Below are positions 1 through 54,317 of a stretch of DNA of 64,000 nucleotides, one piece after another. Source of the stretch: Rhizophagus irregularis (lineage: Eukaryota; Glomeromycota; Glomeromycetes; Glomerales; Glomeraceae). The position numbers were made by a program, and so were the translations under genes. The notes beneath the pieces were generated by a model, which was not told where the DNA came from, searched no databases, and saw only the letters and a list, made by a program, of their open reading frames with translations. Each line of letters starts with the position of its first letter. Positions within the stretch are counted from its first letter, which is position 1. The stretch is taken from the NCBI RefSeq assembly GCF_026210795.1, contig NC_089452.1:1922001-1986000 (forward strand), in the 5' to 3' direction.

Positions 1-2623
1 ATAGCTTCTGAATGTGTTTCATATGACATTCCTAAATTAGTTAAAGATATTATGTCATTTGATGAATTCTTATTTATTTCTTCTGCTTCTTTAATTTGCT
101 TCTGCAATTCTACTGTTTGACTTTTACTTTTTTTATTTATCCATTCGTGTAAAATATCATAAATTTCTTCTGCTTGTGGTCGATTTAACGGATCTGCGTC
201 CAAACATCTTTTAATTAAGTAAATAATTAGTTGAGGCACTTTAATATTAAACCTTGGCCTGAATCCTTTACAAATTTTTATTGCTAAATTTTCATCATGG
301 CTAATGTCATGATATGGAGGTAATCCAGAAATTATTTCATACATAATTATACCAAAACTATAAATATCTGAAGCTTTTGTATAATTTTGTCGTCTTAAAA
401 TTTCAGGAGCTATATAAGATAAAACACCATATATGTTATTTTTTGCACTTTCTAATGGATTACAATCTGCAGGTTTACATAATCCCATATCAGCTATCCA
501 CATATTAAATAATGAAATTAGTATATTTCCACTATGTAAATCTCGATGAATAAATTCATTTTTGTGAATACAATCAAGTCCACATGCAAGTCCTAGTAAA
601 TGATTAAGCTTGCTATTCCAATTTAATTCATTATGGTTTGTATCTAAGTAATTTCGTAAGCTTCCTCCCTCTGCATAATTTAAAACCATTATATAATCTT
701 TTGTTTCTGGATTCTGAGTAATTCCATAGAACTTTATAATAAAATTTTTGAAATTATTAAATCTACTATGTAATGCAATCTATATATTAAAATATGTTAA
801 TAAAAATTAAATTTTCAATTGAGAATAAATAGATGAAATTTATAGTACCTCATTCATAAATTCTAATGTAATGTTTCTTGAATTATTTAAACTTTTTAAA
901 GCCACTAGCATATTTCGATATTTTCCATCATTCCAAATTGCTTTATATACTTTACCATATCCACCTTTTGCAATATATTTAATATCATAAAATCTATCAT
1001 AAGGTATCCATTCTAATGCTTCTCCTAAATCGTAATGAGCTAATAATTGAGTATCTTGAATAAATTTATCAATATTATTATTCCCACTAGTCCAATTTAT
1101 AAATTTCTTATGAAATTCACATATACCATCACATTTTTCACACAAATCACTTAAAATCATCATATAATTCTTTGTTTTTGGATCTTGAGTTATTCCATAA
1201 AATTCATAATTTCCATTAATCTACAAATGTACTAAAAAATTAGTAAAAATAACAAAACTAAAATTCTAAACTTTAATTAAATAATACCTTATTTGTAACT
1301 TCTAATTTAATATTATTCAGATTAATACGCTTCAGAGTTACAAACATATTTTGATCATATCTTTCCCAATTTTGATTATATATATCCCAATTATAAATAT
1401 ATCCATCAATCCAATTTGCTCTAAATACTCCAATTTTTTCATTATATTTAATATTACAAAGTCTATTATAAGGTATCCATTCTAATGCTTTTTTAGATAC
1501 TTCATATTTATCATGTGTTGATAGCTGAGTATCTTGAATAAACTCATCAATATCATCATTACCACTAGTCCAATTATCATATTGCATTACATATATAATC
1601 ACATTTTTTACATTTGTCACACAAAACAATCATATAATTTTTTGTTTGTGGATCTTGAGTTATTCCATAAAATTCATAATCACTTTTAATCTACAAATAT
1701 ATCAAATTAGTAAAAAAATATAGTAAAAGTTTAAAATCTTAAAAATTCATTAAGTATACCTTATTCATAGATTCTAATGTAATATTTTTTGGATTATTTA
1801 AGTTTTTCAAAGCTACTAACATGTTTTCATTAGATCTTACCCAATTTTCATTATCCCGTTCATAAATATATCCATCAATCCAATTTGCTCTAAATACTCC
1901 AATTTTTTCATTATATTTAATATTACAAAATCTATTATAAGGTATCCATTCTAATGCATTTACCCTATAATAATAAGTATGCTCTAATAGCTGAGTACCT
2001 TGAATAAACTCATCAATATCATCATTACCACTAGTCCAATTATCAAAATTTTGTTGAAAGTGTATTGCATTACATATATAATCACATTTTTTACATTTGT
2101 CACACAAAACCACCATATAATTTTTTGTTTGTGGATCTTGAGTTATTCCATAAAATTCATAATCACTTTTAATCTACAAATATATCAAATTAGTAAAAAT
2201 ATATAGTAAAAGTTTAAAATCTTAAAAATTCATTAAGTATACCTTATTCATAAATTCTAATGTAATATTTTTTGGATTATTTAAATTTTTCAAAGCTACC
2301 AACATGTTTTCATTAGATCTTACCCAATTTTCATTATCCCATCCATAAATATATCCATCAATCCAATTTGCTCTAAATACTCCAATTTTTTCATTATATT
2401 TAATATTACAAAATCTATTATAAGGTATCCATTCTAATGCTTTTTTAGATACTTCATATTTATCATGTGTTGATAGCTGAGTACCTTGAATAAACTCATC
2501 AATATCATCATTACCACTAGTCCAATTTTTAAAATTTTGTTGAAAGCGTATTTCACTACATATATAATCACATTCTTTACATTTATCATTAAGAAATGAC
2601 TGAAATGGATTTTTTAAACTCAT
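1..2623 (-). CDS. Tyr-kinase-like protein with four tandem head/N-lobe exons (3' end outside window)
   Basis: Probable protein kinase of the expanded Glomeromycotina family. Exons on the minus strand: 2243-2623 (ATG at 2623), 1760-2173, 1288-1690, 849-1220 and catalytic exon 779 to beyond base 1. All four introns are 67-69 nt with GT-AG ends. Exons 1, 2 and 4 are multiples of three; exon 3 is 403 nt and frameshifted. Each head exon carries a Cys-rich motif (CDKCKKCD type), the W-T-S-G-N linker, an A-L-E-W-I-P-Y motif and beta1-beta3. Exon 4 has a near-normal glycine loop (AKGGYGKVY) and VALK. Exons 1-3 have a shortened loop (NEKIGVFRANW) but keep VALK. The catalytic exon shows YAEGGSLR, HRDLHSGN, DMG in place of DFG, and APE. 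HRD and the Lys suggest activity; DMG is seen again in a second kinase of this window. The substrate is unknown. Gene structure is predicted from splice signals only. Confidence 0.8.
849..2623 (-). repeat. Tandem array of four duplicated kinase head/N-lobe exons
   Basis: Four copies of one coding module, each ending in the same donor context (AAG or GAG then GTA) and, from copy 2 on, each starting after TTTGTAG with an I-K-S-D-Y-E-F-Y-G-I-T-Q type beta4 strand. Introns 2174-2242 and 1691-1759 are both 69 nt and almost identical, so copies 1-3 are recent duplicates. Copy 4 is more diverged and is the only one with an intact glycine-rich loop. Confidence 0.85.
1288..1690 (-). pseudogene. Frameshifted copy (exon 3) of the kinase head-exon array
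   Basis: Compared with the neighbouring exon 2, about 17 nt are missing just after the Cys motif, where exon 2 reads H-F-Q-Q-N-F before the D-N-W-T-S-G linker. The exon length (403 nt) is not a multiple of three. The incoming frame stops at a TGA soon after N-A-I, while the rest of the module stays open in another frame. Skipping it joins exon 2 to exon 4 in phase. Its splice sites look intact, so it may be skipped, give a truncated transcript, or be an assembly error. Confidence 0.65.
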
Positions 2624-6222: not shown

Positions 6223-8123
6223 ATGTATCAAACGATCATTCTAGGATCCATTCTATTGGTATCATTTTATATTTTTTATATTTTAAAGCGTGTTTTCAAA
6301 CCAAAATTCGTAAGTAAATTATTTTATTAATTCATTTTTTTATATTAAGTTGCTTTTTATTTTATTTTTTCTTTTTATTTTCTTAGAATATGCCACCTCT
6401 TGTTCGTTATAAGATTCCAATTATCGGTCATACTTATAGTTATACGTTTAATTCCGAAGAATTCCTTAAACAATGCAAAAAGGAGGTTAATAAAATAGTA
6501 AAAAATTTTTGTTTTCTTTTTTTTTTTTACGTCAAATCTATTAACAAATTTAATTTTCGTATTAATTAGTATGGCGATATCTTTAGTATATATGTATGGG
6601 GTCAAGTGAGAACAATAGTCGGTAATACATTTTTATGAATATACTGTATATAAATAATTTTAATGTTCATGACCAATAAAATATTATATAGGAAAAGAAT
6701 ATTCGCAAGAGATATTATCAAGAGATGATGCGTTTAATTTTGGGAAAGCATTTTTCGAAATAATTCCGTATGACTTATTACTTAAACATATCGATATGGG
6801 TTTAGTAAATATGCCAAAATTGCTTAAAGATCATATTTTTTGCAAATTAAATTTTTATTCTGAACGTATGCAAAAATGTCTTCATTCCGCCACTCAAAAA
6901 TATATTGATATTAATGTTCATGATGATCCAAAAGTTTTTAATAATATGTATCCTTTAATAAATAAAATTATTTCTACCCCTGTTGCAAATATTTTTATTG
7001 GTGAAGTAAGTATATATACGTTCCATATTTGTATATATTTATTATTTAAAAATTTTTTTTTATTAAATATTTATTCCTTTCAAAATTTACTTTTTTTTTT
7101 ATAGGAGGAATCGAAATATGATGAAGTTGTAACAACATTTGCAGAATTTACAAGTGATTTATCGACATTAATAAAAATTCCACCGTTTCTTAATTTTTTT
7201 TATCCAGGACTCCTCAATCGCATTCTCGTGAGTTCAGGATTATATAATCCAGCAATTAAACATAGAAATATATTAATTAAACATATTAAAAATCAAGTTT
7301 GTAAACGTTTGAAAGGGAAAGCAAAATATGGTGATTCTTGGAAACGTCCTGATGATTTACTTCAAGATATTATAGAACAAGAAAATATTGACTTTAATAA
7401 TGTTAATTATCCATCATTAGCTGACAAAATGCTTTTATTTCTTTTCGCTTCAATTCATACGACATCAAACGGTTGTGCAAATGCTTTCATGGATTTAGCT
7501 TCTCATCCTCAATATATACAAGAATTATATGAAGAACAATTGGAAGTACATAAAGAAGCTGATGAGAATGGTGTGCTTCCATTTGAAGCTCTTGATAATA
7601 TGAAGAAATTAGATAGTTTTATTAGAGAATCTTTAAGATTAGCTGGTCATATATTAGCACTTGATCATTCTGTATTAAAAGATTACACTTTCTCTAATGG
7701 ATTACAATTACCAAAAGATCATATAGTTAAGATTTATGTTGATGATATTTACCAAGATGAATTATTACAAGGTCCAAGTCCGAAATCATTTGAACCATTT
7801 AGACATTTGGATATAAATGTTCCTGCGTCAAAAATTGGTAAAAATTTTATGTTATTTGGAGGTGGTAAACACGCGTAAGTTTATAACGAATATTTAATTT
7901 TTTTTTTTGCAAATATTTTAAAATTAATTTAATTATCATTAAATTATTTAGATGCCCTGGAAGACATTTTGCTATAAACGAAATCAAATTTTTTATGCAT
8001 AACATTATCTTAAAATATAATATTTATACAGAGAGTGGTAAAATTGAAGGAAGAAAAATGTACGGTCCAACTGCATACCCAAGTTCTGGTGTAGTTATTA
8101 TCGAAAAGAGGAGGGCAAAGTGA
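6223..8123 (+). CDS. Cytochrome P450 monooxygenase, six exons
   Basis: Haem-thiolate monooxygenase, probably anchored in the ER membrane. Exons: 6223-6309, 6387-6485, 6570-6621, 6692-7005, 7105-7874, 7952-8123. Phases join correctly, giving about 497 aa, a normal fungal P450 length. The N-terminus is a hydrophobic anchor (residues about 3-21) followed by basic residues and a PPL-type hinge. The I-helix reads F-A-S-I-H-T-T-S, the K-helix has E-S-L-R (ExxR), then comes an F-E-P-F-R motif, and the haem loop F-G-G-G-K-H-A-C-P-G-R spans the last intron. In the I-helix, His sits where many P450s have Asp or Glu; HTTS-type I-helices are known in some fungal P450 groups. The substrate cannot be read from the sequence. 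The paralogue at 42666-44552 has the same exon pattern, which supports this model. Confidence 0.88.
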
Positions 8124-14724: not shown

Positions 14725-16497
14725 TTATAAATTATACACTATTGTATAATCAGGTGTCTTCTTTATTTCATCAAATACATTCTCTATGTTTGATTTGTTT
14801 TGTTTCATATTTATTTCTATTTTTTCCATAATCATTTTTGAAGTAAGATTGTATGTTGATCCTGCATTCTTGTTACTACTTGTAAATCTATTTACTAGAA
14901 TGTTAATTCTTTCCTTGTTAATATTCTTCATGTCTCCAATTTCATCTAATATCTTTTTTGCATACATACAATCTAATGAACAGAACCATTGTCCATTTTC
15001 ATTATACATTTCTCTTTTTTGGTTTTGTTCATTACATGTTTTACATGTTACTTGATTATTAAAATTATCAAATCTTCTTTGATATTTTGTATGACATCTA
15101 GTACAAATTTTGTCATTTATCATCCTATTCATATCTGTAATTCTTTTTTTACATTCAGGACATTCCTTTTTGTTACTATAAAATTTATTACTTCTTTTTT
15201 GATAGCATTTGTAACATTCCCCTAATTTAATAGATTTTTCCAGATAACAATGGATACATTCTCCAATATTTTTAGTTTTTTCATTATTTTTCATTTGTTC
15301 TGAAGGTACTAGAGTTACTTTTTCATTATTGTTCATTTGTTCTGAAGGTGCTAAGCAAGTTTTCTTTTGTTGATAACATTGAAGACATTCTCCTAATTTG
15401 ACTGGTTTATTTTGATGACAATGAATACATTCTCCAATTGGAATATTTTCAATTTTTTTTGAAAGAGTTACTGGCTTTTTTTGTTGAATAGTTTCAATCT
15501 TTGAAGAAGTCACTGGTTTCTTTTGTTGATAGCATTGAAGGCATTCTCCTAATTTGACTGGTTTATTTTGATGACAATGGATACATTCTCCAACTGGAAT
15601 ACTTTCAATTTTTGAAGTAGTCACTGGTTTCTTTTGTTGATAACATTGAAGACATTCTCCTAATTTAACTGGTTTATTCTGATGACAATGAATACATTTT
15701 CCAATTGGAATATTTTCAATTAAAGGAGTCACTGGTTTCTTTTGTTGATAACATTGAAGACATTCTCCTAATTTGACTGGTTTATTCTGATGACAATGAA
15801 TAGAATTTCCAATTGGAATATTTGAAGGAGTCATTGGTTTCTTTTGTTGATAGCATTGATGACATTCTCCTAATTTAACTGGTTTATTTTGATGACAAGA
15901 GATACATTCTCCGATTGGAATATTTTCGATTTTTGAAGGAGTTACTTGTTTCTTTTGTTGGTAACATTGAAGACATTCTCCTAATTTGACTGGTTTATTC
16001 TGATGACAATGAATACACTTCCCAATTGGAATATTCTTGATCTTTGAAGGAGTTACTTGTTTCTTTTGCTGATAACATTGATGACATTCTCCTAATTTAA
16101 CTGGTTTATTTTGATGACAAGAGCTACATTCTCCGATTGGAATATTTTCGATTTTTGAAGGAGTTACTTGTTTCTTTTGTTGGTAACATTGAAGACATTC
16201 TCCTAATTTAACTGGCTTATTCTGATGACAATGAATAGAATTTCCAATTGGAATATTTGAAGGAGTCATTGGTTTCTTTTGTTGATAACATTGAGGGAAT
16301 TCTCCTGGTTTATCCTGATGACAATGGCCAATTGGAATATTTTTAATCTTTTCATTATTTTTCATTAGCTTTAAAGACTCTGATCTTTTTTTTGATCCAC
16401 ATTTAAAGATACCTCCTCTTATAGGATATGATTTATATTTATCACATTTTTCAGTAAATTCAGTATATTTAGTCACATATTTCTTTGGTTGATACAT
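14725..16497 (-). CDS. Cys-rich repeat protein with about ten zinc-ribbon-like modules
   Basis: Single open exon. I take the Met at 16497 as the start (590 aa); the frame stays open to 16602, but that extra stretch is AT-driven Lys/Leu/Phe sequence and more likely 5' UTR. The body consists of about nine or ten modules of 34-40 residues, each C-x2-C-x10-C-x2-C, for example ECIHC then CLQCYQQKK, separated by T-P-S-K-I-E-N-I-P-I-G. Module 1 is degenerate, and two modules have N-S in place of the first Cys context. The C-terminus has further Cys pairs (CPEC, CTRC, CKTC, CSLDC). The spacing predicts one structural zinc per module, which is inference. The function is unknown; a scaffold or nucleic-acid-binding role is possible. 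The near-identical modules indicate recent internal duplication. The Cys spacing resembles the heads of the kinases in this window (CEKC-x11-CKPC). Confidence 0.75.
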   Translation of the reverse strand: MYQPKKYVTKYTEFTEKCDKYKSYPIRGGIFKCGSKKRSESLKLMKNNEKIKNIPIGHCHQDKPGEFPQCYQQKKPMTPSNIPIGNSIHCHQNKPVKLGECLQCYQQKKQVTPSKIENIPIGECSSCHQNKPVKLGECHQCYQQKKQVTPSKIKNIPIGKCIHCHQNKPVKLGECLQCYQQKKQVTPSKIENIPIGECISCHQNKPVKLGECHQCYQQKKPMTPSNIPIGNSIHCHQNKPVKLGECLQCYQQKKPVTPLIENIPIGKCIHCHQNKPVKLGECLQCYQQKKPVTTSKIESIPVGECIHCHQNKPVKLGECLQCYQQKKPVTSSKIETIQQKKPVTLSKKIENIPIGECIHCHQNKPVKLGECLQCYQQKKTCLAPSEQMNNNEKVTLVPSEQMKNNEKTKNIGECIHCYLEKSIKLGECYKCYQKRSNKFYSNKKECPECKKRITDMNRMINDKICTRCHTKYQRRFDNFNNQVTCKTCNEQNQKREMYNENGQWFCSLDCMYAKKILDEIGDMKNINKERINILVNRFTSSNKNAGSTYNLTSKMIMEKIEINMKQNKSNIENVFDEIKKTPDYTIVYNL

Positions 16498-16602
16498 GAT
16501 CAAGTAATTTTTTTTTTTTAAAAAAAAGTGAGTTAGAAATTTAAGAGTTTTTATAGAGTTTAGAAATTTAACAAGTAATTTTTTTTTGAATTGAAACTTC
16601 AA

Positions 16603-17184
16603 AAGATATCATCTCCTTTTATAATATTTTTTTAGTGTAATTTTTGTGTTGTGCATGGTATCTAATTTAATTAGTCATGTTTCATACTCTTAAAGATGAA
16701 TTATTATATTCAGTTAGTACAACTTTAGTCATTGACGTTATAAAATTATTAGTATACTAAAATTAATTTTGTTGATTTTATTATCCAAAATATAAAAAAC
16801 TGAAACAATTTTAATCAAGTATCAATTTTAAATTTACAATTCTTATTTAAATTATAATGTTGTCACAAATCACTATAAAATATAATAGTTTTTTATTCAA
16901 GTTGTGTAAATACAATGAAGAAAATATTTTTGTTTTGAAACAATTTCAATTTTATTATTTTATTGTGCACACAATTTGTAAAGAAAGTGGTTGTAATGGG
17001 ATCACAAAAATCATACCTATGTAGATGCTATAACTCTAATTGATTTGAAACATTTTATGGAACTTAAATGGAATTACCATATAATATATAAATTTCCGTG
17101 TTCCTTTTTTTTTAACGATGCTGACTATAATGTATTATGATAAAATATTTTTTTAGTATAACATTAAATGACTCATATTACCAT
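16603..17184. other. Intergenic spacer
   Basis: AT-rich; presumed upstream region of the Cys-repeat gene. No motif firm enough to call. Confidence 0.4.
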
Positions 17185-24861: not shown

Positions 24862-25333
24862 GGTATAGCCGTATGGGTTCTCCCTGTACAAGTATTTTGT
24901 CTGATTTGTAATCAATGTTACGAAAATATTATACAACGGTCTGGTGTTTAAAAAAAAAAAAATATGCATACTAGACCAATCGGATTGTCCGTTATATTGC
25001 GCAATTTCATAATAAAGTTGTACCTGCAGGATTCTTACGGTACATGTAACATTACTTTGTACTCCTTGTTGATCCTCATAGCAAAAATTTTTTTTCTTTC
25101 CTAAATCGTAATAACTAAAAATGATTGGTATTTCTATCTTCCTCTGAAGTAACGTCGTCACTAAAAATTCTTTTGCAATTCAGAGAATATAACAAGAGTA
25201 CAAGACAAAAGCTAATAATAAAAGGTACAATAGTTTTATTAAAATTAAAAAACTGTTTGTTTTATAGAAAAAATGAATATTGCTTGTATTTTAGACAGTA
25301 TTATAAACAAAATAAAATTTTTTGAACATTAAT

Positions 25334-25556
25334 AGGACCCAGAAATATATATAAAAGGGTCAGGTTTGAGTTTGCGTATTTTGAACAATGAAAATCTTTC
25401 CTTTTGAGATAATTTTTGATAATGCCAGTCAGAATTTTATTTCCTATTATAGTAACCGACTGACATTATCATAATTCCGGCTCTGAGAAAATGCGTACAG
25501 CTCATATTAAAAAACTTTTTCATCACCTGACCCCTATATATATATTTCTGGGTCCT
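25334..25556. mobile_element. hAT-like MITE, 223 bp
   Basis: Left end AGGACCCAGAAATATATATA and right end TATATATATTTCTGGGTCCT are inverted, flanked by a perfect 8-bp duplication ACATTAAT (25326-25333 and 25557-25564). It lies about 220 bp before the kinase array start, so it could carry part of that promoter region. Confidence 0.85.
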
Positions 25557-25717
25557 ACATTAATAACGTTTGTAAAAACAAAATATTTTGCTGCAGAATT
25601 ATTTGCATTTCCGGTTAACTATGAAACTGGAAATTGTGCAACATAATAATAAATGTATGTCATTTCGTTTCACATGCTACAAACGAAGGAAAGATGGTTA
25701 TACAAATTTTTTTTCAG

Positions 25718-25777: not shown

Positions 25778-28700
25778 ATGTCATCTTTAGGCAACATTAA
25801 AAATTGTGAAAAATGTGTTAAAAGATATACATATTTAGAGTATAAATGGTGTAAACCATGTCAAATAAATAATTTAAAAAATAATTTTACCAACTGGACT
25901 AGTGGAAATGAAAAAATTGATAATTTAATTCAAGGAATGCAATTAAAAATTAATTATCCAAAGAATATAATATTAGAATGGATACCATACATTCAGTTTA
26001 GTAATATTAATGAAATAAAAAAAAGTGATTCTGCTACAGTATATTCAGCAATATGGAATAATGGTCCATTAAATTATGATGATTCTAATAAATATGAATA
26101 TATAAGAAGTCAGTATACAAAAGTTAATTTAAAATGTTTACATAACTCTCAAAATATCACTGATGAATTTTTAGATGAGGTATGAATCTTTGGTTAAGTT
26201 TGTAAATTTTAAAAATTTTTTAATATTAATCTTTTCTTAATGTTGTTGTTTTAATAGGTTGAATCATATTTAATTGACCATAATCGTTATTATAACAATA
26301 ATAAGATATATGGAATATCACAAGATTCAGATACAAACAATTTTATCATTGTTTTTCTAAATGGATATTATTGTGAAAAATGTGGTAAAAAATATACAAA
26401 TATAAAGTATAAATGGTGTAAACCATGTCAGATAAATAATTTAAAAAATAATTTTACAATCTGGACAAGTGGAAATAAAAAAATTGATAATTTAATTCAA
26501 GAAACGCAATTAAAGATTGATCATCCATATAAAATGGGATTAGAATGGATACCATACAATCAGTTTAGTAATATTAATGAAATAAAAAAAATTGATTCTA
26601 CTACAGTATATTCAGCAATATGGAAGGATGGTCCATTAAATTATGATTCTAATAAATATGAATATATAAGAAGTCAGAATACAAAAGTTAATTTAAAATG
26701 TTTACATAACTCTCAAAATATCATTAATGAATTTCTAAATGAGGTATGAATCTTTAGTGAAGTTTGTAAATTTTAAAAATTTTTTATTAATCTTTTCTTA
26801 ATATTTTGTTTTAATAGGTTGAATCATGTTTGATTAACCATAATCGTTATAATAATAATAAGATATATGGAATATCACAAGATTCAGATACAAACAATTT
26901 TATCATTGTTTTTCTAAATGGATATTATTGTGAAAAATGTGGAAAAAAATATACAAATATAAGGTATAAATGGTGTGAACCATGTCAAATAAATAATTTA
27001 AAAAATAATTTTACAATCTGGACAAGTGGAAATAAAAAAATTGATAATTTAATTCAAGAAATGCAATTAAAAATTGATCATCCATGTAAAATAGTATTAG
27101 AATGGATACCATACAATCAGTTTAGTAATATTAATGAAATAAAAAAAAATGATTCTACTACAGTACATTCAGCAATGTGGAAGGATGGTCCATTAAATTA
27201 TGATTCTAATAAATATGAATATATAAGAAGTCAGAATACAAAAGTTTATTTAAAATGTTTACATAACTCTCAAAATATGATTAATGAATTTTTAAATGAG
27301 GTATGAATCTTTAGTAAAGTTTATAAATTTTAAGAATTTTTTAATATTAATTCTTTCTCAATGTTTTGTTTTAATAGGTTGAATCATATTTAATTAGCAA
27401 TGATGATGATGATGATGATGATGATGATAAAATATATGGAATATCACAGGATTCAGATACAAACAACTTTATCATTGTTTTTCTATTAAATGAATATTGT
27501 GAAAAATGTGGTGAAAAATATACAAATATAGAGTGTAAATGGTGTAAACCATGTCAAATAAATAATTTAAAAAATAATTTTACAAGCTGGACTAGTGGAA
27601 ATGAAAATATTGATAATTTAATTCAAGAGATGCAATTAAAAATTGATTCTTATAAGGATATAATATTTGAATGGATACCATTTAGTCAGTTTAATATTAT
27701 CAAAGAAATAGGTAAAGGTGGAATTACTACAGTATATTTAGCAATATGGAAAGATGGTCCATTATACTATAGTAATAATAAATATAGATATACAAGGAAA
27801 TACCAAAATAAAGAAATAACTTTAAAATTCTTACATAATTCTCAAAATATCACTAATGAACTTCTAAATAAGGTATGAATTTTTAGTAAATTTGTTAATT
27901 TTAACAACTTTTTTAATTCCCTTTTAATGTTTTTGTTTTAATAGTATTGTGACTACGGAATATCACAAGATCCAGATACGAATAATTTTATTGTTGTTTC
28001 TTCAAATAATAAATATTGTGAAAAATGTGGCAAAGAGTATGAATATGCAAGTAATTGGTGTAAACCATGTCAAATAAATAATTTAAAAAATAATTTTACC
28101 AACTGGACTAGTGGAAATGAAAAAATTGATAATTTAATTCAAGGAATGCAATTAAAAATTAATTATTCATGGGATATAGTATTAGAATGGATACCATACA
28201 ATCAGCTTAGTAATATTAATGAAATAAAAAATAGTGATTTTGTAATATACTATTCAGCAATATGGAAGGTTGGTCCATTAAATTTTGATAGCTCTAATAA
28301 ATATAAATATACAAGAAGTCAGAATACAAAAGTTGATTTAAAATGTTTACATAACTCTCAAAATATTACTAATGAATTTCTAGATGAGGTATGAATCTAT
28401 AGTAAAATTTTTAAACTTTAAAGAATTTTTTAATATTAATCACTTTTTAATGTTTTAATTTAATAGGTCAAATCATATTTAATTAATGGCAAAATATATG
28501 GAATATCACAAGATCCAGATACAAACAATTTTGTAATTGTTTTTCTAAATGAATATTGTGAAAATTGTGGTGTAAAATATACAAATATAGAGTATAAATG
28601 GTGTAAACTATGTCAAATAAATTATTTAAAAGATAATCTTACAAAATGGACCAGTGGAAATGAAAATATTGATAATTTAATTCAAGAGATGCAATTAAAA

Positions 28701-28931
28701 ATTGATTCTTATGAGGATATAATATTTGAATGGATACCATTTAGTCAGTTTAATATTATTAAAGAAATAGGTAAAGGTGGATTTGCTACAGTATATTTAG
28801 CAATATGGGATGATGGTCCATTATACTATAGTAATAATAAATATAGATATACAAGGAAATACCAAAGTAAAGAAATAGCTTTAAAATTCTTGCATAATTC
28901 TCAAAATATCACTAGTGAATTTTTAAATGAG
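25778..28931 (+). repeat. Tandem array of six kinase head/N-lobe exons (types A-A-A-B-A-B)
   Basis: Period about 480-570 bp including the intron. Exons 1, 2, 3 and 5 are type A (E-I-K-K-x-D in place of the glycine loop, K-V-N-L-K-C-L in place of VALK). Exons 4 and 6 are type B (K-E-I-G-K-G-G, E-I-A-L-K-F-L or E-I-T-L-K-F-L). Exons 2 and 3 and their introns are nearly identical. The A-B order at positions 3-4 and 5-6 suggests duplication of an A-B pair. Confidence 0.85.
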
Positions 28932-30017
28932 GTATAAAATTTTTATAATTTATTTTAGGTGTAATAAATATGAATAATTGGTTTTTATATTTATTGACCT
29001 AATTTGTGAAATTTTCTTTATATATATATATATATTCACTTAACAAATTTTTTTTTAATAGGTTAAAAAATATTCAATTATTTTTGATACTGATGATTTT
29101 TATCAAAATGATAATATAATTAAAATATATGGTATATCTCAAAATCCAGATACAAAAGATTATATTATGGTTCTTGACTATGCAGAAGGTGGAAGTTGTA
29201 ATATTTGGATAAATACTGTAAAAATTATAATAGCAATGGTTTTACATGGGATGTTAAAGGAGATTTATTGTTTGGTGTTATAAAAGGCCTTAAGGCAATT
29301 CATCAAAAACATCTAGTACATTGTGATTTTCATGCAGGAAATATACTACTAAATACGAATTATATATATGATGTTAGATTTCATACTTATATATTTATTT
29401 CAGATATGGGATTATGTAAAGAAGTTCATGATGTCAATCAAAGTAATATTTATGGAGTTATACCTTATGTAGCGCCTGAAGTGTTAAAGGGAAAACCTTA
29501 TACTCAAGCAGCAGACATATATAGCTTTGGCATGATTATGTATTTTATAGCAACTGGAGGACAACCTTTTGCTAATTGTGCACATGATGAAATTTTAGTA
29601 TTAAATATTTGTGATGGAATTAGACCTGAAATAAAAGAACCAGTAGCACCAAAATGTTATATTGATTTAATGAAAAGATGTTGGGATCCAAATCCGGACA
29701 ATAGACCAAAAGCAACTGAATGTTATGAACTAATTAATTCATTTAGGCATGCACGATTTAGTGAAGCAGAAAAATACAGAAGGTTAAATATTTCCTCTTC
29801 TAAAAAAAATAGACAATCAACTCATGCACAAGCTATTTATACATCTCGATTACTTAACCCTTTTACAAAAAATCTACCAAGATATGATAATATTGACAAT
29901 AATTCAATAGAAGTCACTGACTTTACAAAGTAAGTATTGCCAAAAATTTTTGATAGGAGATTTTATTTATTTATTAATTTGAAACTAAATCCTTTATTTA
30001 GATTAACAGATGAGTAG
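25778..30017 (+). CDS. Tyr-kinase-like gene with six tandem head/N-lobe exons; frameshift in catalytic exon
   Basis: Exons: 25778-26179, 26258-26743, 26818-27300, 27378-27872, 27945-28388, 28467-28931, catalytic 29062-29929, last 30002-30017. The first six are multiples of three with phase-0 borders. Introns are 72-130 nt, mostly with GTATGAAT donors and TTTAATAG acceptors. Each head exon has CxxC-x11-CxxC (CEKC, CKPC), W-T-S-G-N, an E-W-I-P motif and beta1-beta3. Exons 2-6 start with the beta4-beta5 piece (Y-G-I-S-Q-D). Only exons 4 and 6 keep a glycine loop (GKGGITTVY, GKGGFATVY); only exon 6 keeps A-L-K in a near-VAIK setting. The catalytic exon has HCDFHAGN (Arg of HRD is Cys), SDMG and APE. 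One base is missing between Y-A-E-G-G-S and L-D-K-Y near 29190-29205, and the upstream frame stops near 29280. It is either an error or an inactivating change. The last intron (GTAAGT at 29930) leads to L-T-D-E-stop. Confidence 0.75.
27399..27428 (+). repeat. (GAT)n microsatellite coding for poly-Asp
   Basis: A run of GAT codons gives nine or so Asp residues between V-E-S-Y-L-I-S-N and K-I-Y-G-I-S-Q in exon 4 of the array. It keeps frame and sits in the short variable loop before beta4. Confidence 0.8.
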
Positions 30018-34953: not shown

Positions 34954-37900
34954 TTATAAGTTGCTAAGGATATCATTTAAATCAAGTAAATTTTCCATTT
35001 CTTTTCTTGAAAAATACTTGTCTTTGAAAATTTCTGGAACATTTGAGAAAAATTGGTGATAATATGGTAACAAATAACCCATCAAACTCATGTTAGGAAT
35101 GGAAGTTATTTTGTTAGGACTATATCCAAATCGAACATAATCTATTTGCTATGTATATTAAAGAATAATATTATATTTTGTTCTGAGAGGAAATTAATCT
35201 GAATAAGTAAATAGGAACATACCATTTCAATAGAATTTATTTCAATTGAAAGTTGAGTACCATATGAGTATGTTAAATTCTGATATTCTATCCAACCTAA
35301 TCCCTCAAGTTTTGACACATCTTCATGTTTTAACATATGCTCACTTTGATTATATTCCTATAATTGAGTTAATGTTACTTTAAAAATATAATGATAGAGA
35401 TTTTAAATAATTAACTTACATTATTATTATATATAAATTTTATAAAGCAATCTTTAGATAATATTTTTTTAACATTTATTTTACAAATAAGATAATAATT
35501 ATAATATCTATAATGTCTAGGCAAATCTAAACGAAGTTTTCCATTTTTAGAATACAATACCAGCCCTAATAAACTTTGATTTTAAAATTATGGTTAATTC
35601 GGTTAATTGGTATATGTCAACTTGACTTAAAGTACTATTATGAATAAACTTTACCTGCTTATATCACTTTCTTGGAATTGACAAAGTTCACTATTTAAAT
35701 TTGTAAGATTTGAAATAAAATATACGTGTTTTTCTAATATATTAAATATATTAAATTATTACAACTTAAATAGAAGATAATAAATAAATTAAATATTTTC
35801 TTACTTTTATACATGTATTTACTAAATTTGTTAGTAATTCCAAGTTTGGTAAAATCACATTCGTCAATTTTACAAACTTTATATAAATATGACCAAAAAT
35901 CCGAATACTTTTGTAATAAATGAATATATGAAAATTCTCTATGGTAATAATCGTTGTATTTATCACTTAATATATATAGCATATCCAAATCTACTTTAGC
36001 TTCATAATACTTATTTAATTCAATATATATTTTACATCTAATTAAAAGCAATAATTTATTTTTGCTAATATTAGGGATTTGATTGATTTTTGTTAATATA
36101 TTATTTAAATCTTTAGAACTATTTTCATTTAGTAAATATTCTAGATGAAATAATTGGAATTTTTCTAAACTATTACTTTGAGAACTCGGTAATTTAAATA
36201 ATTCTGCATACTTTTCAAATAATATTGTGACATTATTGATGTCATTCTTTGTATAGTATGTTAGACCTTTAAGATAATATGCTGAACTATTTAATGGATC
36301 TAATTGTATAATTTTATCAAGATCTAATATAACTTTATCATATTCCTGAATAGCATAGTTTGCAATAGCTCTCTTATTCAAATTATGAATATTTTCTGGA
36401 TCTATAATATTTGCTTCTGTAAAGTATAGTATAGCTTTACTATATTGTTTCATATTATATAAGATTTCTCCATAATAACATAAAACCAAAGAATCCTTCT
36501 TGCTAATATCTAACAACTTGCCTAATATCATTAGAGCATTTAAATAAAATCCTTGTTTTTCATAACTGTATGTATAATTTTTAAGGCATAAATAACTGTT
36601 TGAATCATTTTTTAATGAAATATTATAATATTCTGCAGCTTTCATGTAATCATAATTACCATAATTACGTAATAAGTGACTATTTCCAAGTATTATATAT
36701 AAATTATTTAATTTTACTTTATATTCTAATAACTTTTTTAAAACATCTATTGCTTCTTCATATTTATTTTGTCTAAAATATATTTCTCCATGAATAAAAT
36801 GAGCAACTGGTTTTTTGGGATTTAAATCAATAGCTTCTTCTAAGTATAAGTGTGCTTGTTTATAATTGTCGAGACCCCTATAAATATAAGCTAAAATACA
36901 TCTTGAAGAATAACTTTTAGGAAAAAAATTTAAAAATTCTTTACATAAAGATTCAGCTTTTTCATAATTTTTTTCATTTATTTCTTTTATAATATTTTGA
37001 TATGTTGGATGTTGTTTTTTTGTAATTCTTGAAAGTAATGATGATGATATATTCGAATTTAATTTAATAATTGAATTCATAAATTTCTTTTTTTTAGTTA
37101 ATATAAGTTCAACTTCTGAATTATCTGAATCATCACTGTCATCGGAATTTTCTAATTCAATTGAGGGTAAAATATATCCAGATTCAAAAAATTTTGTATA
37201 TAAATTTTTATAAATTGAATTTTGTGGTAAATATCTAATATCATTATCTTCAATTTTTTCCCGACAATTAGGACATATTTTTTGTTTTAATCTTTTTAAA
37301 TTACTTAATGCTAACATATGTTGGCACTTTAAAATACATAATTGATCAGTTGGTTCACTACTAATTGGACAAGTAATTTCATCTGCTATAACATTTAAAA
37401 TGTTAGAATTTGATGTTTGTTCTTTCTTTAAATATGAATTTAGATTTAAACTTTTTCCTTTTCCCTCTTTTCCTTTTCCAATATTATTACTTAAAATTTT
37501 TAAATCTTCATGATATTTCTCTTTGACAAAAGTTAATAAATTTCGAAATTTTTCTAAAGAATCTTCCAAATTATTTTCACTTAATTTTTGTGTGTATTGA
37601 TCAAAATCAATTTCAATCATTGAAAACATTTTATTATCAATATTATATAAATGTAATAATAATTCAATAGATTTAAACTGAATAAAACTACTTGGTGCTT
37701 TATTAAGTGATTCAATTGCTAAATAATAACAAAGACCATATGTTGCTTTTCGGGATGATCTTTGGATAAGATTTTGTGCAAGATCTAATATTCCAAACCA
37801 TAAAGTATGTGGTAATGCAATAGGTTCATTTCCAGCAAGATCATTTAATAAACCTCCAGCATTTTTCAAAGCTTTAGTGACTTTATTTGATACTTCTTCA

Positions 37901-38967
37901 AATTTTGTTTGAGAACCTAAAATAGATTTGTCTGCAGCATTAACCCATTCTCTTTCCAAAAAGCTCCAGATATATTCCATTAATACCAATTCACTAAATT
38001 TTTTACTAATAATCTTTTCAGAACTTTCAGACCAAATGAAAAGATTATTTTGAATTATTAATATAATTCTCCAATCTATATAATAAGATGCTACTGGATA
38101 TTTAAAACTTAAACTTTGACGCACTTGAGTAAGAAGTGATAAGATTGAACAATTATCATTTGGAAGAGAAACTCCTGCTATTGATAAAATTCCTGGTGTA
38201 ATATTTAATGCAGCTTTAAGAAAATCTTTAGTTCTTCGTATAATTTCTTGAAACCAAGTTTCATCATCACGTAAACTATGAAGAGAATCTCGCAAATGAA
38301 TTAATAAAAAATCAATATTATAATTACGCTTTTTAATAATTTGTTTATCTTGATTATTACTTTGTTGATTGAATTGATTGAAATTTCGTCTAAAATTATT
38401 ATCAAGTCCTATTTCGATAACTTGAGTTGTTTTACGATGAATTTCTGCAAATTTTGCCAAAGAATTATAAACTTTATCTCGAAGTTCTTTACCAAGTACT
38501 ATTGGTGAAAAACATATCCGTTCTAAGACGGTAACCAAAGTTCTTAAATGTAATTCTAATCTAGCAACACTCTCTTTTGAATAATGATTAAAAGGAGTAT
38601 CAACTAAAGCTTCTAATGAATTTGCTAAAACTTGAGATGAAAACTCACTTTGTAAGTTTTCAAAAAGCACCTTCAAAGCATATAAATACTTTATTTCGGA
38701 TAGTTCCTTAATAAGTTCTTTTGCCTTTTCATCAGGCGTGATGAATCCATCTTCTTCTAATTTAAGAAGGATACGATTGTTGGATATATTTTCACACAAA
38801 ATCGTCTTATACGAAAGAGAGTTATTATTTTCTAAGTTTCCAGGAGCAGTATTGGTAAAAGAACTTCCACTCTATTATTATATAAAATTAGTTTTAATGA
38901 TTTGAAATTGATTAAAATTTTAGTATTGCTTAAAATAATAATTTACCTGACTTGAACTTCCTTCCAT
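34954..38967 (-). CDS. Large RING/U-box-like and TPR protein, six exons
   Basis: Exons: 38947-38967 (ATG), 35805-38871, 35655-35733, 35420-35573, 35223-35357, 34954-35148 (stop). Phases join throughout, giving about 1,216 aa. The N-terminal ~430 residues are helical with no recognised domain. Near residue 505 comes a RING/U-box-like motif: C-P-I-S, then L-K-C-Q-H-M-L-A-L-S, then C-P-N-C-R; the usual first CxxC is incomplete. An acidic D-S-D-D-S-D-N-S-E linker follows. Residues about 620-1030 are TPR-like helical pairs (A-H-F-I-H-G-E-I-Y-F, L-Y-I-I-L-G-N-S, S-A-Y-Y-L-K-G-L-T-Y-Y). The C-terminus carries a conserved block with I-D-Y-V-R-F-G-Y-S-P. An E3-ligase or scaffold role is possible by domain logic; no direct evidence. 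The last four exons are short and assigned from splice sites and open phase. Confidence 0.8.
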
Positions 38968-42665: not shown

Positions 42666-44552
42666 TCACTTAACCCTCTTTTCAAAAATAATTCCACAAG
42701 AACTTGGAATTGTCAATGGACCGATCCTCTTTTTTTCTTCGATTTTACCACTTTCTGTACGGAAATTATATTTCAAAATAGCGTTATGCATAAAAAATTT
42801 GATTTCGTTTATAGCAAAATGTCTTCCAGGGCATCTAAATAATTTAATGATAATTAGATTAATTTTAAAATATTTGCAAAAAAAAAAAAAAATTTAAATA
42901 TTTATTATAAACTTACGCGTGTTTACCACCTCCAAATAATATAAAATTTTTACCAATTTTTGACGCAGGAACATTTGCATCTACATGTCTAAATGGTTCA
43001 AATGATTTCGGATTTGGACCTTGTAACAATTCATCTTGATGAATATCATCAAAATATATTTCAACTGAATGACCATTTGGTACTTGTAATCCATTAGAGA
43101 ATGTATAATCTTTTAATACACTGTGTTGAAGTCCCGCTATAAATCCTGTTAATCTTAATGATTCCCTAATAAAACTATCTAATTTCTTCATTTCATTAAG
43201 AGCTTCAAAAGGAAGTATGCCATTTTTATCCGCTTCTTTATGAACTTCTAATTGTTCTTCATATAATTCTTGCATATATTCAGGTCGAGATGCTAAATCT
43301 ATCAAAGCATTCGTACAGTTTCTCGATGTTGTACGAACTGATACAAAAATTAATGCACCCATTTTATCTGCTAATGATGAATAATTAACATTATTAGAAT
43401 CAAAGCCATCTTGTTCCATAATATCCTGAAGGAAATCATCAGGACGCTTCCAAGAATCTCCATACTTTTCTTTCTCTTGTAAACGTTTACAAGCTTGATT
43501 TTTAATATGCTTAATTAGTATAGCTTGATGTTTAATTGTTGGATTATATAATCCTGATTTTATGATAATACGATTGATATAATTTTGGAGTCCTGGATAA
43601 ATAAAATCAAGGATTGGTGGGATCATTAAAAATATTACTGAATCACTTGTAAATTCTGCAAATGTTGTTATTATTTCCTCATATTGTGATTCCTCCTATA
43701 AAATGAAAAAAAAAATAATAAAATTTTTTAATATTTTTTTCAAAATATTAAACAAATAGTATATACAGTATACTTACTTCACCAATAAAAATATTTGCAA
43801 TGGTATTAGAAATAATTCTAGTTATTAAATGATGCATATTATTAAAAACCTTTGATTCATCATAATCACCAATATCGATATATTTTTGAGTGGCTGAATA
43901 AAGACTTTTTTGCATACGTTCAGAATAAAAATTTAATTTACAAAAAACATGTTCTTTAAGCAATTTTGTAATGCTTGTATCACTCAAACCTTTAAGTAAT
44001 AAGTCACTCGGGAATTTTTTGTGAAACGCCTCTGTAAAACTAAACGCATCATCTTTTGATAATACTTCTTGCGTATATTCCTTTCCTATTAAAATACATA
44101 TTATTAGTCGCTGACGTTAAAATTATTTATTTATAATATATATTTATATACGCAGATATATTACCAACAATTGTTATCACTCGACCCCATATATATAGAC
44201 TATAGATACCACCATACTAATTAATACGAAAATTAAAATTGTTAATGAATTTGACGCAAAAAGAAAAGAAAAATAATTCTTTATTCTTTTACTAACCTCC
44301 TTTTTACATTGTTTAAGGAATTCTTCGCAATTAAACAAATAACTATAAGTATGACCAATAATTGGAATTTTATAACGAACAAGAGGGGGCATATTCTAAA
44401 TAAAATAAAATAGAATAAAAAATCAAAAAAATATATACACATAATTACTAAAATTATATTCTTACTAATTTTGGCTCGCGAACACGCTTTACACGCTTTA
44501 AAATATAAAGCGATACTAATAGAATAGATCCTAGAATGATCGTTTGATACAT
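42666..44552 (-). CDS. Cytochrome P450 monooxygenase, six exons (second copy)
   Basis: Paralogue of the gene at 6223-8123 with the same six-exon plan: 44466-44552, 44297-44395, 44165-44216, 43778-44085, 42917-43695, 42666-42834. Exon lengths 87, 99, 52, 308, 779 and 169 nt give about 497 aa; the first three lengths match the paralogue exactly. N-terminal membrane anchor, I-helix F-V-S-V-R-T-T-S (Arg where the paralogue has His), E-S-L-R of the K-helix, F-E-P-F-R and the haem loop F-G-G-G-K-H-A-C-P-G-R are present. Exon 4 is more diverged than exon 5. The stop codon lies at 42666-42668. The substrate is unknown. Confidence 0.88.
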
Positions 44553-47900: not shown

Positions 47901-49437
47901 TTAAATGTATAAAAATAAGTGGTAAATTATGTTTAATGTACCTCTTAATTGTATTGAATTAGATACTTTCAAGTCGATTAATCGAGAGTCACAAACTATT
48001 AAAGCAATAAAAAGTTAATGATAATCAATTATTTAAAAAATAAAATGTTTAAAAATAGAAAATACCTTCATTATTAACATATGAAGTAATAATGGATGAA
48101 TTAACGGGTTTTGGTAATGAATTACTAAATGTAAACGCTCTACTGGTATATACAGCATCTGAATTCTTTTCATATGAAGTTGAGATATTTGGTATTTCCT
48201 TATCAGCTTCTTCAAATGCCGCTTTAATTTCTTTTCCTTTATAACCGAATTCTTCTATTTCATCATTCTTACCTTTTATAGAATCATCCCAGAAATCAAA
48301 TATATTCTTTAATTCTTCGGCCGTTGGTCTTTCATTTGGATTGGCATTCATGCATTTATAAGCTAATTTCTTATAAAATTCAGGAGTTCCTTTTCCAAAT
48401 TCTGGTCTGAGTCCAATACATATGGCTAATGATAAGCTTAAATCATGCTTATTATTGTAAAAAGGTGGTCTTCCTGATGATAATTCGGCCATAATTATAC
48501 CTACACTATAAATATCGGATGATGATGTATATGATTCTCCGTTTAAGACTTCTGGTGCAATATATGGCATTACTCCATATACTACTCTATCATCTGATTT
48601 TTGTTCATTTGCTGGTCCTGATAATCCAAAGTCTGAAACATAAGGGGAATTACCAATTTGTAAAATATTACCACTATGAAAATCTTTATGACAATATCCT
48701 AATTTATGTAATGAATTTAAGTCATATAATATATAAAATAAACGATCAATTTTATTTTCCCACATAGTGTTGTTAAAGTTATTTGAAAGACTACTTCTCA
48801 AACTTCCTTCATAAGCAAAATTCATAATCATCATAAATTCTTTAGTTTCTGGGTATTTAGTTAATCCATAAAATTTCAATCCATTTTTATTAGAAATTTC
48901 CCAATGTATTTTAAGCTATATTTTAATAAAGTTAAAATAAAATAATTTAAATGATTCTTAATATTAAACACCTAAATGAAATAAATTAAACAAGATACAA
49001 TATATATAAAAACGTACTTCATTTAAATATTTATCTGAGATATTCTGTGATCCATTTAACCTTTTCAAAGCAACTTTTATAGATTTAGGTTCTTGTTTTT
49101 CCCAATTTCCATTAATATATTCATATGCTGATTTACCATCAATCCAAGTTGCAGAATATACTTTGGCAAATCCACCTTCACCAATTTCTTTTATATCTGT
49201 AAATTTATCAAATGGTACCCATTCAAGAAATTCATCGACATAATCTGTTTTATTTTTTTCATTATACATTGTATCTTTTATAAACTTATCAATAACAGAA
49301 TTTCCACTGGACCATCCTTCCATTATTCTACATGGGTCACATTCTTTACACCATAATTCTTCAGTAAAGGGTTTATTACAATACGAACAATTTTTATGAT
49401 TATCTGAGATTTTTAATTTACTAAGTTCGGTTCCCAT
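47901..49437 (-). CDS. Tyr-kinase-like protein, three exons, single head module
   Basis: Exons: 49018-49437 (ATG at 49437), 48066-48915, 47901-47995; about 454 aa. The head has C-S-Y-C and W-C-K-E-C-D-P-C motifs, then W-S-S-G-N, F-L-E-W-V-P-F, glycine loop E-I-G-E-G-G-F-A-K-V-Y and V-A-L-K-R-L. Exon 2 holds beta4-beta5 (F-Y-G-L-T-K), C-H-K-D-F-H-S-G-N (HKD for HRD), V-S-D-F-G, A-P-E and the C-lobe end. Exon 3 gives a tail with L-I-D-L-K-V-S-N-S-I-Q-L. Catalytic Lys, Asp, Asn and DFG are all present, so it is probably active. It is the ordinary architecture against which the two exon arrays in this window can be compared: the phase-0 intron sits at the same place, just before beta4. Confidence 0.85.
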
Positions 49438-50325
49438 TAGGTTATTTTCGTAATATACAGTATTCAAAAAAAGAAAAATAAAATTTTTTTCTTTTTTTTT
49501 ATGGACGAAATATTTTTTTTTTATATTTAATAATGTTACTAATTAAGGCTACTTTAATCATTTAATTTTTTTTTCGGGCCGTATTTTTTCCGATTCATTG
49601 ATCTGCATTAACGGTATCACGATCCACGAGACATTTTCCAAAATTTTAAATTAAATAGACTATTTATAATTTTGAAATTTTTTTTATTGTAATTTATATT
49701 AGTTTATTGATGAAAGTAACAGGCATTTGTAAAATTAAATCAAATTTGAAATAAAAGTTCCAGAAATAATCTTCCATTGAATTTCTGAATTAAAACCCTA
49801 ATTAATAAGTAAATTAAGTTGATATTTATATTTTTATTTTTTTTATATTTTTGAGCATAACTAATATTTTTTAAATATGAGTATAAATTGAAATAAAGAA
49901 TATTCATTATGTTAACATAGTATTTTATGAAAGAAAATAAAAAATTATTTAATTAAAAATAAATTACTATTAATTATGCACCATCATAAACAAATTATTC
50001 AAGTTTACATAATAATTCTTTCACTCTTTTATTATTAAAACTAGAGGATTCCGATGTGCAGTGACTGTGTCTCCGCCAGTTAGCACACAAATAAATAATG
50101 GATATTAACTTATTGTAATAATATGTTTTTATTAATCAGTTGTCCATTCTTAGCTTAAATGATTGTAATTGATATTTATTGATTATAAATATCAAATTGG
50201 TAATATTGCATCTAATTTAAAGATTTTATATAGAATTCTAGATTTAATTATATATATAATAAATTAAGATAGCTAATAAGTCAAGAAATGAAAAAAAAAC
50301 TACAAATAAAAAAAATATTGTTTCC
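49438..50325. other. Intergenic spacer
   Basis: AT-rich upstream region of the three-exon kinase. No motif firm enough to call. Confidence 0.4.
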
Positions 50326-52114: not shown

Positions 52115-54311
52115 ATGTCCACCCCAACTAGGACTACTCGTAGTGCTGCCCAGAAGGGTATAGACAACCAGGAGCAGGGAGAAACTATGGAAGGAGTTCG
52201 TTGTTGGTACAACTTCTACTGCGCAAGATACTTCGAATAATTTTACTTTCACTCCTAACGATGAGGAGTTTACTACAGTTAAGTCTAGAGCTACCTTACG
52301 TCAAGAAAACAAGAAGAAAAAGAAACAACAACACCAGGCAGCTGCTACTGCAAGATTACCATATAATAGAAAACAACAAGCAGCTTTCAAATGACAGGAA
52401 CTCGACCCTTTCGTTGCTTATAATCCACAAAATACACAGCAAAAAAAGAAAACCAAAACTGGCGAGACCCCGAAAAATGTCGATCCTATTGTAACACAAT
52501 CAACCTCTGCAACACCAACTGCGAACAAAGGAAAAGCTAATGAAGATCATTCAGATGTACTACAAAAGATCAACACACAAGATCAAGATGATCAATCGAC
52601 GCATGATGACTCACATTTTGATGATCCATCTGCCGATAATCAATTGCCTGAAAAAGAAATGGCTGACACCAAATTTTCACCAATCGTCTTGTCTAAACAT
52701 AACACATGGAAAGCTACTTGTACGATTCCGGAGGCGCCTAAAAGTACACAATTTTGTCATTATATTGTTAAAATTATCAAATCAAAAATTGACATCGTTA
52801 CCACTTTTGAAGAAAAAAAACCGATTAGATTGACTGATGATACCAATCAAGAACAAAAATACTGTCACATGATTAGTATTAAAGTTAGTACCGAAGTCGA
52901 TTTAAATAGCTTATGTAATATGACTTTTAAAATGCTTAGTGCAACCGATGGAGAAGAAAATAATGTCGTTTACTCTTTTAAGAAAGTAGAAAATTTACAA
53001 GAAAAACGAAAACAACTTTTTCAAACTCGTGAAAGTCGTACTATCAAGGTATTCAATATACCATTATATATGGAAAATTATAATTTGAAGGCTGTTTTTA
53101 GTCGTTATGGAGAGTTAGAAGAAGATGGCATTACTACACGACTCAAAGGTATATACAGACAAGCTTTTATAACCTACAAAGACGAACTTAGCTTACAACC
53201 CTTTTACGCTCAATGGAGTGTATGGGTGTTTAAAGAATGTCTCTCAGTGGTACCTGTTTTGCTATCTGAAGAAAAAAAATCTGAAAGGTTCCAATTTGCA
53301 GCTAAAATTAATGGTTTACCGTTCAATACTTGTGCACGTGATTTACAACCATTGGTTACTGAAACCAGCGCTGCATCTATTTTTATTCCACGCAACCCCG
53401 TGACATATAAACCTATGAAATATGCTTTTGTATATTTTAGAAATGATGAAGATTTTAGTATTGCAACCAATAATGTATATGAATATGAAGGTCAACAACT
53501 AGAATGGTTCCCGTTAGATACCAAATCTTGTCATAGATGCGGATATACGGGACACGTAGTGAAGGAATGTCAAACGGAATTACGACAACGTTCTAATAAA
53601 TTAAATCGTAATCAACTGCTCCAACAATTTAAAAATCGTAATAAATCTAGATTCAATTCATACGCCGATGCCACTAAGGGAAATAGATATCCTAATAATC
53701 GACAACGGCATTGGAATCAAAATAATATTATCAACCGACAACGTAATAACAATACATACACCTTTAGTGAAGAAGAAATGCAAGCTTGGGGTGACGAAGA
53801 AGATATAAGTGACAACAACTACAACCCAATTCAAGGTGGAACTAAGAAAGGAGGCTCTATGCATGATCCAAATAACAACAAACATACATCTTCACAAAAT
53901 GATTTATCAGAGATTAAAAAACAACTTTCCACTTTAAATGCAATGATTACCGAATTTAGAAAAGAAAATGATATAGTTAGAAAAGAAATTAATTCAATTA
54001 AAGAAACCTTTAAAAATAATAATAATCGTAAAGGTCTCCAACAAAACCCGAACAAATTGCCAATAGTTAACGATAATAATAAGCGTGCCAAACCTGACTC
54101 ATCTTCAAGTGAAAATGATGACAACAATTTAGTGCTTAACTTAGAATCAAGAGTAGAAAAACAAGATAGTTTATTAAATAATATGTTCAATATGATCACG
54201 AAACTTACTGGACAACTTTCCGATAAAGAACAAAATGATTCTACTACAACCAAAATTGCAAGTATTGGGGGTACTAGCAATTCAGCCAACCAGTTCGAAT
54301 CCACTTTTTAA
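52115..54311 (+). pseudogene. LINE ORF1 (RRM-like and CCHC zinc knuckle), broken
   Basis: ATG at 52115 opens M-S-T-P-T-R-T-T-R. A one-base shift near 52200 changes frame, and a TGA at 52392 interrupts A-F-K-*-Q-E-L-D-P-F. From 52395 the frame is open to the stop at 54311. The long open part has two RRM-like regions (T-I-K-V-F-N-I-P-L-Y; A-K-I-N-G-L-P-F ending Y-A-F-V-Y-F), then a CCHC knuckle C-H-R-C-G-Y-T-G-H-V-V-K-E-C, an Asn/Gln-rich stretch and a C-terminal coiled coil (S-E-I-K-K-Q-L-S-T-L-N-A-M). In intact elements ORF1 binds the element RNA and chaperones it. Minus-strand open frames here are shadows. Confidence 0.8.
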
Positions 54312-54317
54312 ATCTTA

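Follow-up and report, generated by a model that had tools for sequence, protein, structure and literature searches.

Plant tandem kinase-pseudokinase proteins pair whole kinase domains, and Dscam is a mutually exclusive tandem exon array. The N-terminal lobe (N-lobe) of a kinase has surfaces, above all around helix alphaC, that are common regulatory contacts. Here we describe a gene of the arbuscular mycorrhizal fungus Rhizophagus irregularis in which six tandem N-lobe exons, each with a cysteine (Cys)-rich head, precede one catalytic part. It lies at 25778-30017 on the forward strand of a 64,000-nucleotide stretch (assembly GCF_026210795.1, contig NC_089452.1, positions 1,922,001 to 1,986,000), the whole of which is called the window and to which coordinates refer unless another contig is given. 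The gene is an ordinary, if perhaps broken, member of a large family of array kinases. From sequence, we consider it fairly probable that such genes encode one fixed long protein, in which N-lobes incompetent to bind adenosine triphosphate (ATP) and carrying Cys heads are followed by a single terminal kinase. Excerpts of published work report an expanded repertoire of 2,533 kinase genes in R. irregularis (PMC10234402), a tyrosine kinase domain that outnumbers all other motifs in the gene sets studied there (PMC6123716), and MLKL-like proteins with Sel1 repeats from Glomeromycotina only (PMC8778642).

The array proper spans 25778-28931 and is made up of the following exons:
25778 to 26179, forward strand: E1, head exon with the ATG start, Cys head and beta1-alphaC part; no glycine loop, the site reading NEIKKSDSATV
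26258 to 26743, forward strand: E2, chimeric exon with beta4-beta5 of the preceding N-lobe, Cys head and beta1-alphaC; no glycine loop
26818 to 27300, forward strand: E3, chimeric exon without glycine loop; nearest to E2 (91% amino acid identity, head domain)
27378 to 27872, forward strand: E4, chimeric exon with glycine loop IGKGGITTV; nearest to E6, with 86% in the head domain
27945 to 28388, forward strand: E5, chimeric exon without glycine loop; its start is shortened (YCDYGISQ)
28467 to 28931, forward strand: E6, chimeric exon adjoining the catalytic exon; glycine loop IGKGGFATV intact, at about 28767-28793

These six tandem head exons are real. The homologous copies are spaced 567, 557, 569, 516 and 543 bases apart and measure 402-495 bases, every one divisible by three, with GT-AG borders in phase 0; the donors are GTATGA five times and GTATAA at E6, and the six acceptors read TTTAATAG. 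Their codons sum to 134+162+161+165+148+155 = 925, and no stop interrupts them, against about 15 under a rough neutral expectation given their divergence. The original prediction of six homologous phase-0 GT-AG exons, all multiples of three and totalling 925 residues, agrees with these coordinates, sites and codon counts, and its broader proposal, that a tandem, frame-neutral array stands ahead of one catalytic part and that the predicted protein has several modules, is supported as well. A glycine-rich loop is found in E4 and E6 only and is missing from E1, E2, E3 and E5. Within the pairs E2/E3, E4/E6 and E1/E5 the exons resemble each other more than they resemble any outside copy compared.

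Exons E2-E6 share one internal order, namely a beta4-beta5 stretch (e.g. KIYGISQDPDTNNFVIVF), a CxxC...WCxxC head, beta1-beta3 and alphaC; the strand and helix assignments (beta, alphaC) in the kinase exons of the window were made by motif and are presumptive. Because E2-E6 open with beta4-beta5 of the preceding N-lobe, each splice junction would complete an N-lobe begun one exon earlier, and the repeat unit of the predicted protein is a head plus a full N-lobe. The modules had earlier been described as a Cys head with half an N-lobe; the head is indeed present in all six, but the half lobe does not describe E2-E6, each of which also starts with beta4-beta5 of the lobe before it. One gene of the window serves for comparison:
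48049 to 49542, reverse strand: single-head kinase, with one head exon bearing an intact glycine loop and one catalytic exon
Its head exon stops after alphaC, and its catalytic exon begins before beta4.

The locus had been thought unusual for a fungal gene. For the present genome this view does not hold: arrays are frequent in it, occurring at all 32 loci of one sample and at 8 of 16 in another. With E6 as query, all 150 scored matches (of 4,569 candidates) span the whole chimeric exon and form 95 clusters; most of the gaps are close to a multiple of 545 bp. Sample 1 consists of 32 clusters fetched at random among the 94 outside the window (18 of 33 with several hits and 14 of 61 with one), and every one of them holds 3-9 heads. 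Sample 2 was chosen independently of arrays, as 16 of 99 catalytic-exon matches drawn from the 139 matches of a Pkinase search; with roughly 4 kb fetched for each, 8 of the 16 loci hold 2-8 heads and the others one. There is also an array of 20 heads on contig 2 (5556392-5566198; L037 and L049 among our fetched loci, spacing 489-504) and another of 16 matches at 5520825-5528612 of the same contig (spacing 476-506, one match with a stop). An exact head motif matches 875 times in the genome, against 0 for the reversed-pattern control; dividing this number by the matching fraction among the fetched heads (25/53 or 85/246) gives a rough total of about 1,900-2,500 heads. Outside this genome, no relatives of E6 were found in viral-contig and genome-contig collections, neither of which is a fungal collection. 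The kinase repertoire described in the available excerpts of PMC10234402 and PMC6123716 probably includes array genes, and these excerpts make no mention of repeated N-lobe exons. No description of a repeated half-kinase architecture was found in the titles, abstract openings and passages searched, and a prior description elsewhere is possible.

Over the whole set of fetched arrays, 36 of 39 heads that adjoin a catalytic exon have the GG loop, against 5 of 198 other heads; the fetched copies are related, and these figures are counts, not probabilities. One of the five upstream heads bearing a loop, in L027, closes an array that has no C-lobe match in the fetched stretch. Separately, the single head of L036 was scored as lacking the loop only as its match was cut short (by eye it reads EGGFGTIY). 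For residue counts, 180 full-length heads out of the 193 from sample 1 and the window were aligned, with split or short heads dropped and one single-head gene kept apart. The second loop glycine is present in 27 of 28 adjacent heads and in only 10 of the 151 upstream ones. The VAIK lysine is kept in 28/28 and 138/151, respectively, and the alphaC glutamate in 22/28 and 96/151. The four head cysteines are found in 27, 27, 27 and 28 of the 28 adjacent heads and in 149, 149, 147 and 151 of the 151 upstream heads. On this alignment the upstream heads have lost the glycine loop and kept the Cys head. A tree of 247 modules computed without the loop columns (FastTree, short alignment) implies a minimum of 25 loop-state changes and, weakly resolved as it is, suggests that the loop was lost repeatedly. 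HRD-like and DMG/DFG-like motifs are each present in 27 of the 33 listed catalytic open reading frame pieces, the remainder being fragments or lacking one or both. No fetched array has more than one C-lobe (in one case in two pieces), and the upstream modules have none.

A second array of the window, of a divergent subfamily, can be set beside these:
849 to 2623, reverse strand: tandem array with the same chimeric plan and 4 heads
2623-2243, 2173-1760, about 1710-1290 (frame broken) and 1220-849, reverse strand: its heads in order
Only the head at 1220-849 bears a GG loop, and the catalytic exon runs from about 779 past the start of the window.

Spliced models were attempted for 34 of 42 arrays, the other 8 having been excluded beforehand for split heads or for want of an adjacent C-lobe match. 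A model was obtained for 23. Twenty-one of them have an open frame and plausible introns and encode 459-1,518 residues; the other two fail through an internal stop (L024) and an impossible intron (L028). The models of sample 2 stop at the end of the fetched stretch, and that of L009 stops early, in a split C-lobe. Eleven arrays, both window arrays included, gave no model, a start, a site or the catalytic join being missing. In a site scan, phase-0 donors were listed for 146 of the 175 heads and acceptors for 138 of the 142 tried; some of the 29 heads without a listed donor show a GT by eye. The exons of the 20-head array translate into 2,795 residues without a stop ahead of the catalytic exon, and the first head has a Met; heads 1-19 lack the loop, and only head 20 has it (GKGGFGKVYKANW). 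In the product of the 7-module array L010, Pfam finds one kinase domain, located C-terminally. Together, the last head and the catalytic exon of this gene form a single continuous kinase domain (Pfam match 4-254 of 258), PDB matches likewise, and the closest solved chains by sequence are TAK1, RIPK1, STK17B and roco4. The whole 7-module protein also matches Zn_ribbon_NOB1 with 40.9 bits (cut-off 24.9), and single window modules stay under the cut-offs.

The descent of the modules can be followed in part. In 121 of 180 cases a head finds its best match in a different array and not in its own. Some arrays at different or distant loci correspond module by module, as in L002/L010/L017/L024 (7 modules each), L004/L005 (6 each) and L006/L031 (4 each). 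Among such collinear arrays, whose pairs are mutually dependent, the ratio of nonsynonymous to synonymous substitution rates (dN/dS) has a median of 0.45 for position-matched upstream modules (49 pairs, 0.24-1.02) and of 0.55 for position-matched last modules (8 pairs, 0.33-0.60). No stop was seen in 47 head exons, for which about 131 are expected neutrally (about 83 in 21 exons, 33 in 20 and 15 in 6).

Beyond E6, the remaining parts of the window gene are:
29062 to 29283, forward strand: start of the catalytic exon in the array frame, with beta4-beta5 and hinge; homology to paralogues ends near 29215 and a stop stands at 29281-29283
29202 to 29933, forward strand: C-lobe in a different frame, with HCDFHAGNI, DMGL and APE; homology begins near 29215
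30002 to 30017, forward strand: possible short last exon (GT at 29930, AG at 30000-30001), implied by the end coordinate of the original prediction

The array had been predicted to read through into a single catalytic exon. This part of the claim fails, for the array frame from 29062 hits the stop at 29281-29283 and the C-lobe is in a different frame, so that no single open frame covers the catalytic exon. When 24 paralogue catalytic open reading frames are compared, the array frame ends about where the C-lobe frame begins; because the two frames abut in this way, the defect near 29215 would be a frame break and not lost sequence. GT..AG stretches of suitable length for an intron restoring the frame are present, but the compared paralogues carry the stretch as coding sequence, which makes a frame break likelier than a rescuing intron. 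As to kinase membership, HRD- and DFG-like motifs do not occur in the open array frame, the HRD motif reading HCD and the C-lobe being out of frame. The nearest DNA relative of the window catalytic exon, L050 (contig 4:3467300-3468900, 85-89% identity), is open across the break point and is itself clearly decayed, carrying indels as well as an inserted stretch of about 450 bases. Either the window gene is broken or the assembly has an indel near 29215. We regard the chances as even that this gene alone is a pseudogene, its array intact and its kinase dead, which would be compatible with the fixed-protein reading given above. The frame break, the HCD motif and the unobtainable full splice model speak for a pseudogene; against it stand the six open head exons and the possibility of a single indel error, should the assembly be the Nanopore-based, Illumina-polished one described in the excerpt of PMC10234402. 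The original prediction had named a dead array as an outcome that would refute it. For the family, open frames together with dN/dS below 1 contradict such an outcome; the window gene, given its frame break and HCD motif, could be such a case.

How would such a gene work? Its plan comprises a start exon (Met, Cys head and beta1-alphaC), n-1 chimeric exons and one catalytic exon (beta4-beta5 and C-lobe). Phase-0 splicing, with all exons normally included, would yield one long chain of complete N-lobes with zinc-ribbon-like heads, followed by one normal kinase domain. For the terminal kinase, the upstream modules may be units of multivalent docking or of regulation. Because nearly always the last repeat alone keeps the ATP-binding loop, they are probably fixed regulatory or docking parts rather than interchangeable ATP-binding parts, and since N-lobe surfaces are commonly regulatory, a series of N-lobes could offer several binding sites to partners or to the terminal kinase. 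The arrays would lengthen and shorten through recombination between similar exon-intron units, a new upstream copy then losing its loop; the window gene would be a recently reshuffled member whose catalytic frame is broken or mis-assembled. The sequence itself shows the layout and its recurrence, the loss of the loop from nearly all modules before the last, the retention of the Cys head, the open frames and, in collinear arrays, dN/dS below 1.

Several alternatives have to be weighed against the single fixed protein. The original prediction held that the heads are alternative ATP-binding halves of the kinase, swapped by splicing. Tandem homologous exons of equal phase and the loop in both E4 and E6 agree with such swapping, but 193 of the 198 upstream heads lack the loop, so that swaps should give inactive kinases, and every exon after the first also bears beta4-beta5 of the preceding N-lobe; we consider this model very improbable. 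Cassette splicing could instead vary the number of upstream modules with the last head and catalytic exon fixed, giving the same active site behind different repeat numbers. Phase-0 junctions with similar sites would indeed keep any upstream subset in frame. The constant number and order of modules in some collinear paralogues (7-7-7-7, 6-6 and 4-4) suggest that there the full set matters; others vary, as the related L007, L009, L011 and L012 with 4, 3, 9 and 6 heads, and on balance such variation is an unlikely alternative. In another view, unequal crossing-over left the upstream heads behind as debris without function, which the 5' part of the gene tolerates; we hold this to be quite unlikely. 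Loop decay would fit debris, as would the decayed state of L050, but the median dN/dS of 0.45 between collinear arrays, the absence of stops and the near-invariant cysteines are hard to reconcile with it.

Some observations weigh against the fixed-protein reading, and part of them would suit debris. GG loops occur upstream in the second heads of L006, L016 and L031, as also in E4 of the window, and the differing head numbers of the related arrays just mentioned count here too. Frame breaks or gaps split 8 of 246 fetched heads, to which the third head of the second window array adds. In five collinear array pairs, introns show about the same substitution similarity as exons, with more gaps; substitution in introns is thus no faster. 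Among the young copies, dN/dS is near-relaxed, with a median of 0.78 in the window array (15 pairs, 0.52-2.04) and of 0.76 within the 20-head array (171 pairs); these copies appear to evolve loosely yet stay open. The splice models sought phase-0 sites only, and phase is therefore built into them. Pfam gave no match for one upstream N-lobe spliced across its junction, an invisibility that may explain why arrays are not obvious in annotation. Finally, the AlphaFold model of E3, run with the six window exons, was unusable (mean predicted local distance difference test score, pLDDT, of 39.9), so the fold of the degenerate modules rests on homology.

Other features of the window were noted. About 220 bases upstream of the array ATG lies a repeat of 225 bases (25333-25557) resembling a miniature inverted-repeat transposable element, with 33-base inverted ends (94%); all 40 scored copies, of 654 candidates, are near full-length, and those other than the query have 91-94% identity. 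Two similar cytochrome P450 gene parts lie in opposite orientation at 7105-7878 (forward) and 42913-43695 (reverse). A retroelement-like stretch at 52395-59786 (forward) has an open reading frame with a match to the RNA recognition motif (RRM) and a CCHC-like motif, together with one for reverse transcriptase and one for RNase H, which overlap in different frames. On the reverse strand, an open frame of 627 residues at 14725-16608 is built of repeated Cys-rich units (about CxxCHQNKPVKLGECxxCYQQKK) and has only a marginal Pfam match, DUF7922 (25.3 bits, cut-off 25), and one of 1,045 residues at 35734-38871 has tetratricopeptide repeats.

If it is true that much of the kinase expansion consists of N-lobe arrays missed by Pfam, the proteins would be larger than domain annotation implies and organised differently, and the rule that only the last lobe can bind ATP offers a clear test of half a kinase as a repeat domain. 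A bolder proposal, which we put forward tentatively and think rather doubtful as a whole, is that arbuscular mycorrhizal fungi have hundreds of kinases with a sensor of up to 19 ATP-incompetent N-lobe modules closed across exon borders, that recombination of exon units reshuffles these modules in number and sequence with the single terminal active site protected, and that they form a modular recognition system built on kinase N-lobes.

In comparison with known systems, the array products are like eukaryotic protein kinases of the tyrosine-kinase-like group (PF07714/PF00069) in that the last head and the catalytic exon form a continuous kinase domain, and the N-lobe joining the C-lobe keeps its glycine loop in nearly all arrays (the 36 of 39 above), E6 included. 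They differ from ordinary protein kinases by their additional N-lobes (19 in the longest array read), which lack a C-lobe and, in nearly every case, the glycine loop as well. With the plant tandem kinase-pseudokinase proteins (e.g. Yr15, as described in the excerpts available) they share the fusion, within one chain, of an active kinase with a degenerate part derived from a kinase; however, only the N-lobe and Cys head are repeated here, in long arrays, and two full kinase domains are not found. Dscam-like arrays likewise have homologous tandem exons of equal phase that could be skipped freely, whereas the copies described here would not be functional substitutes for one another, since all but five of the 198 upstream heads lack the loop.

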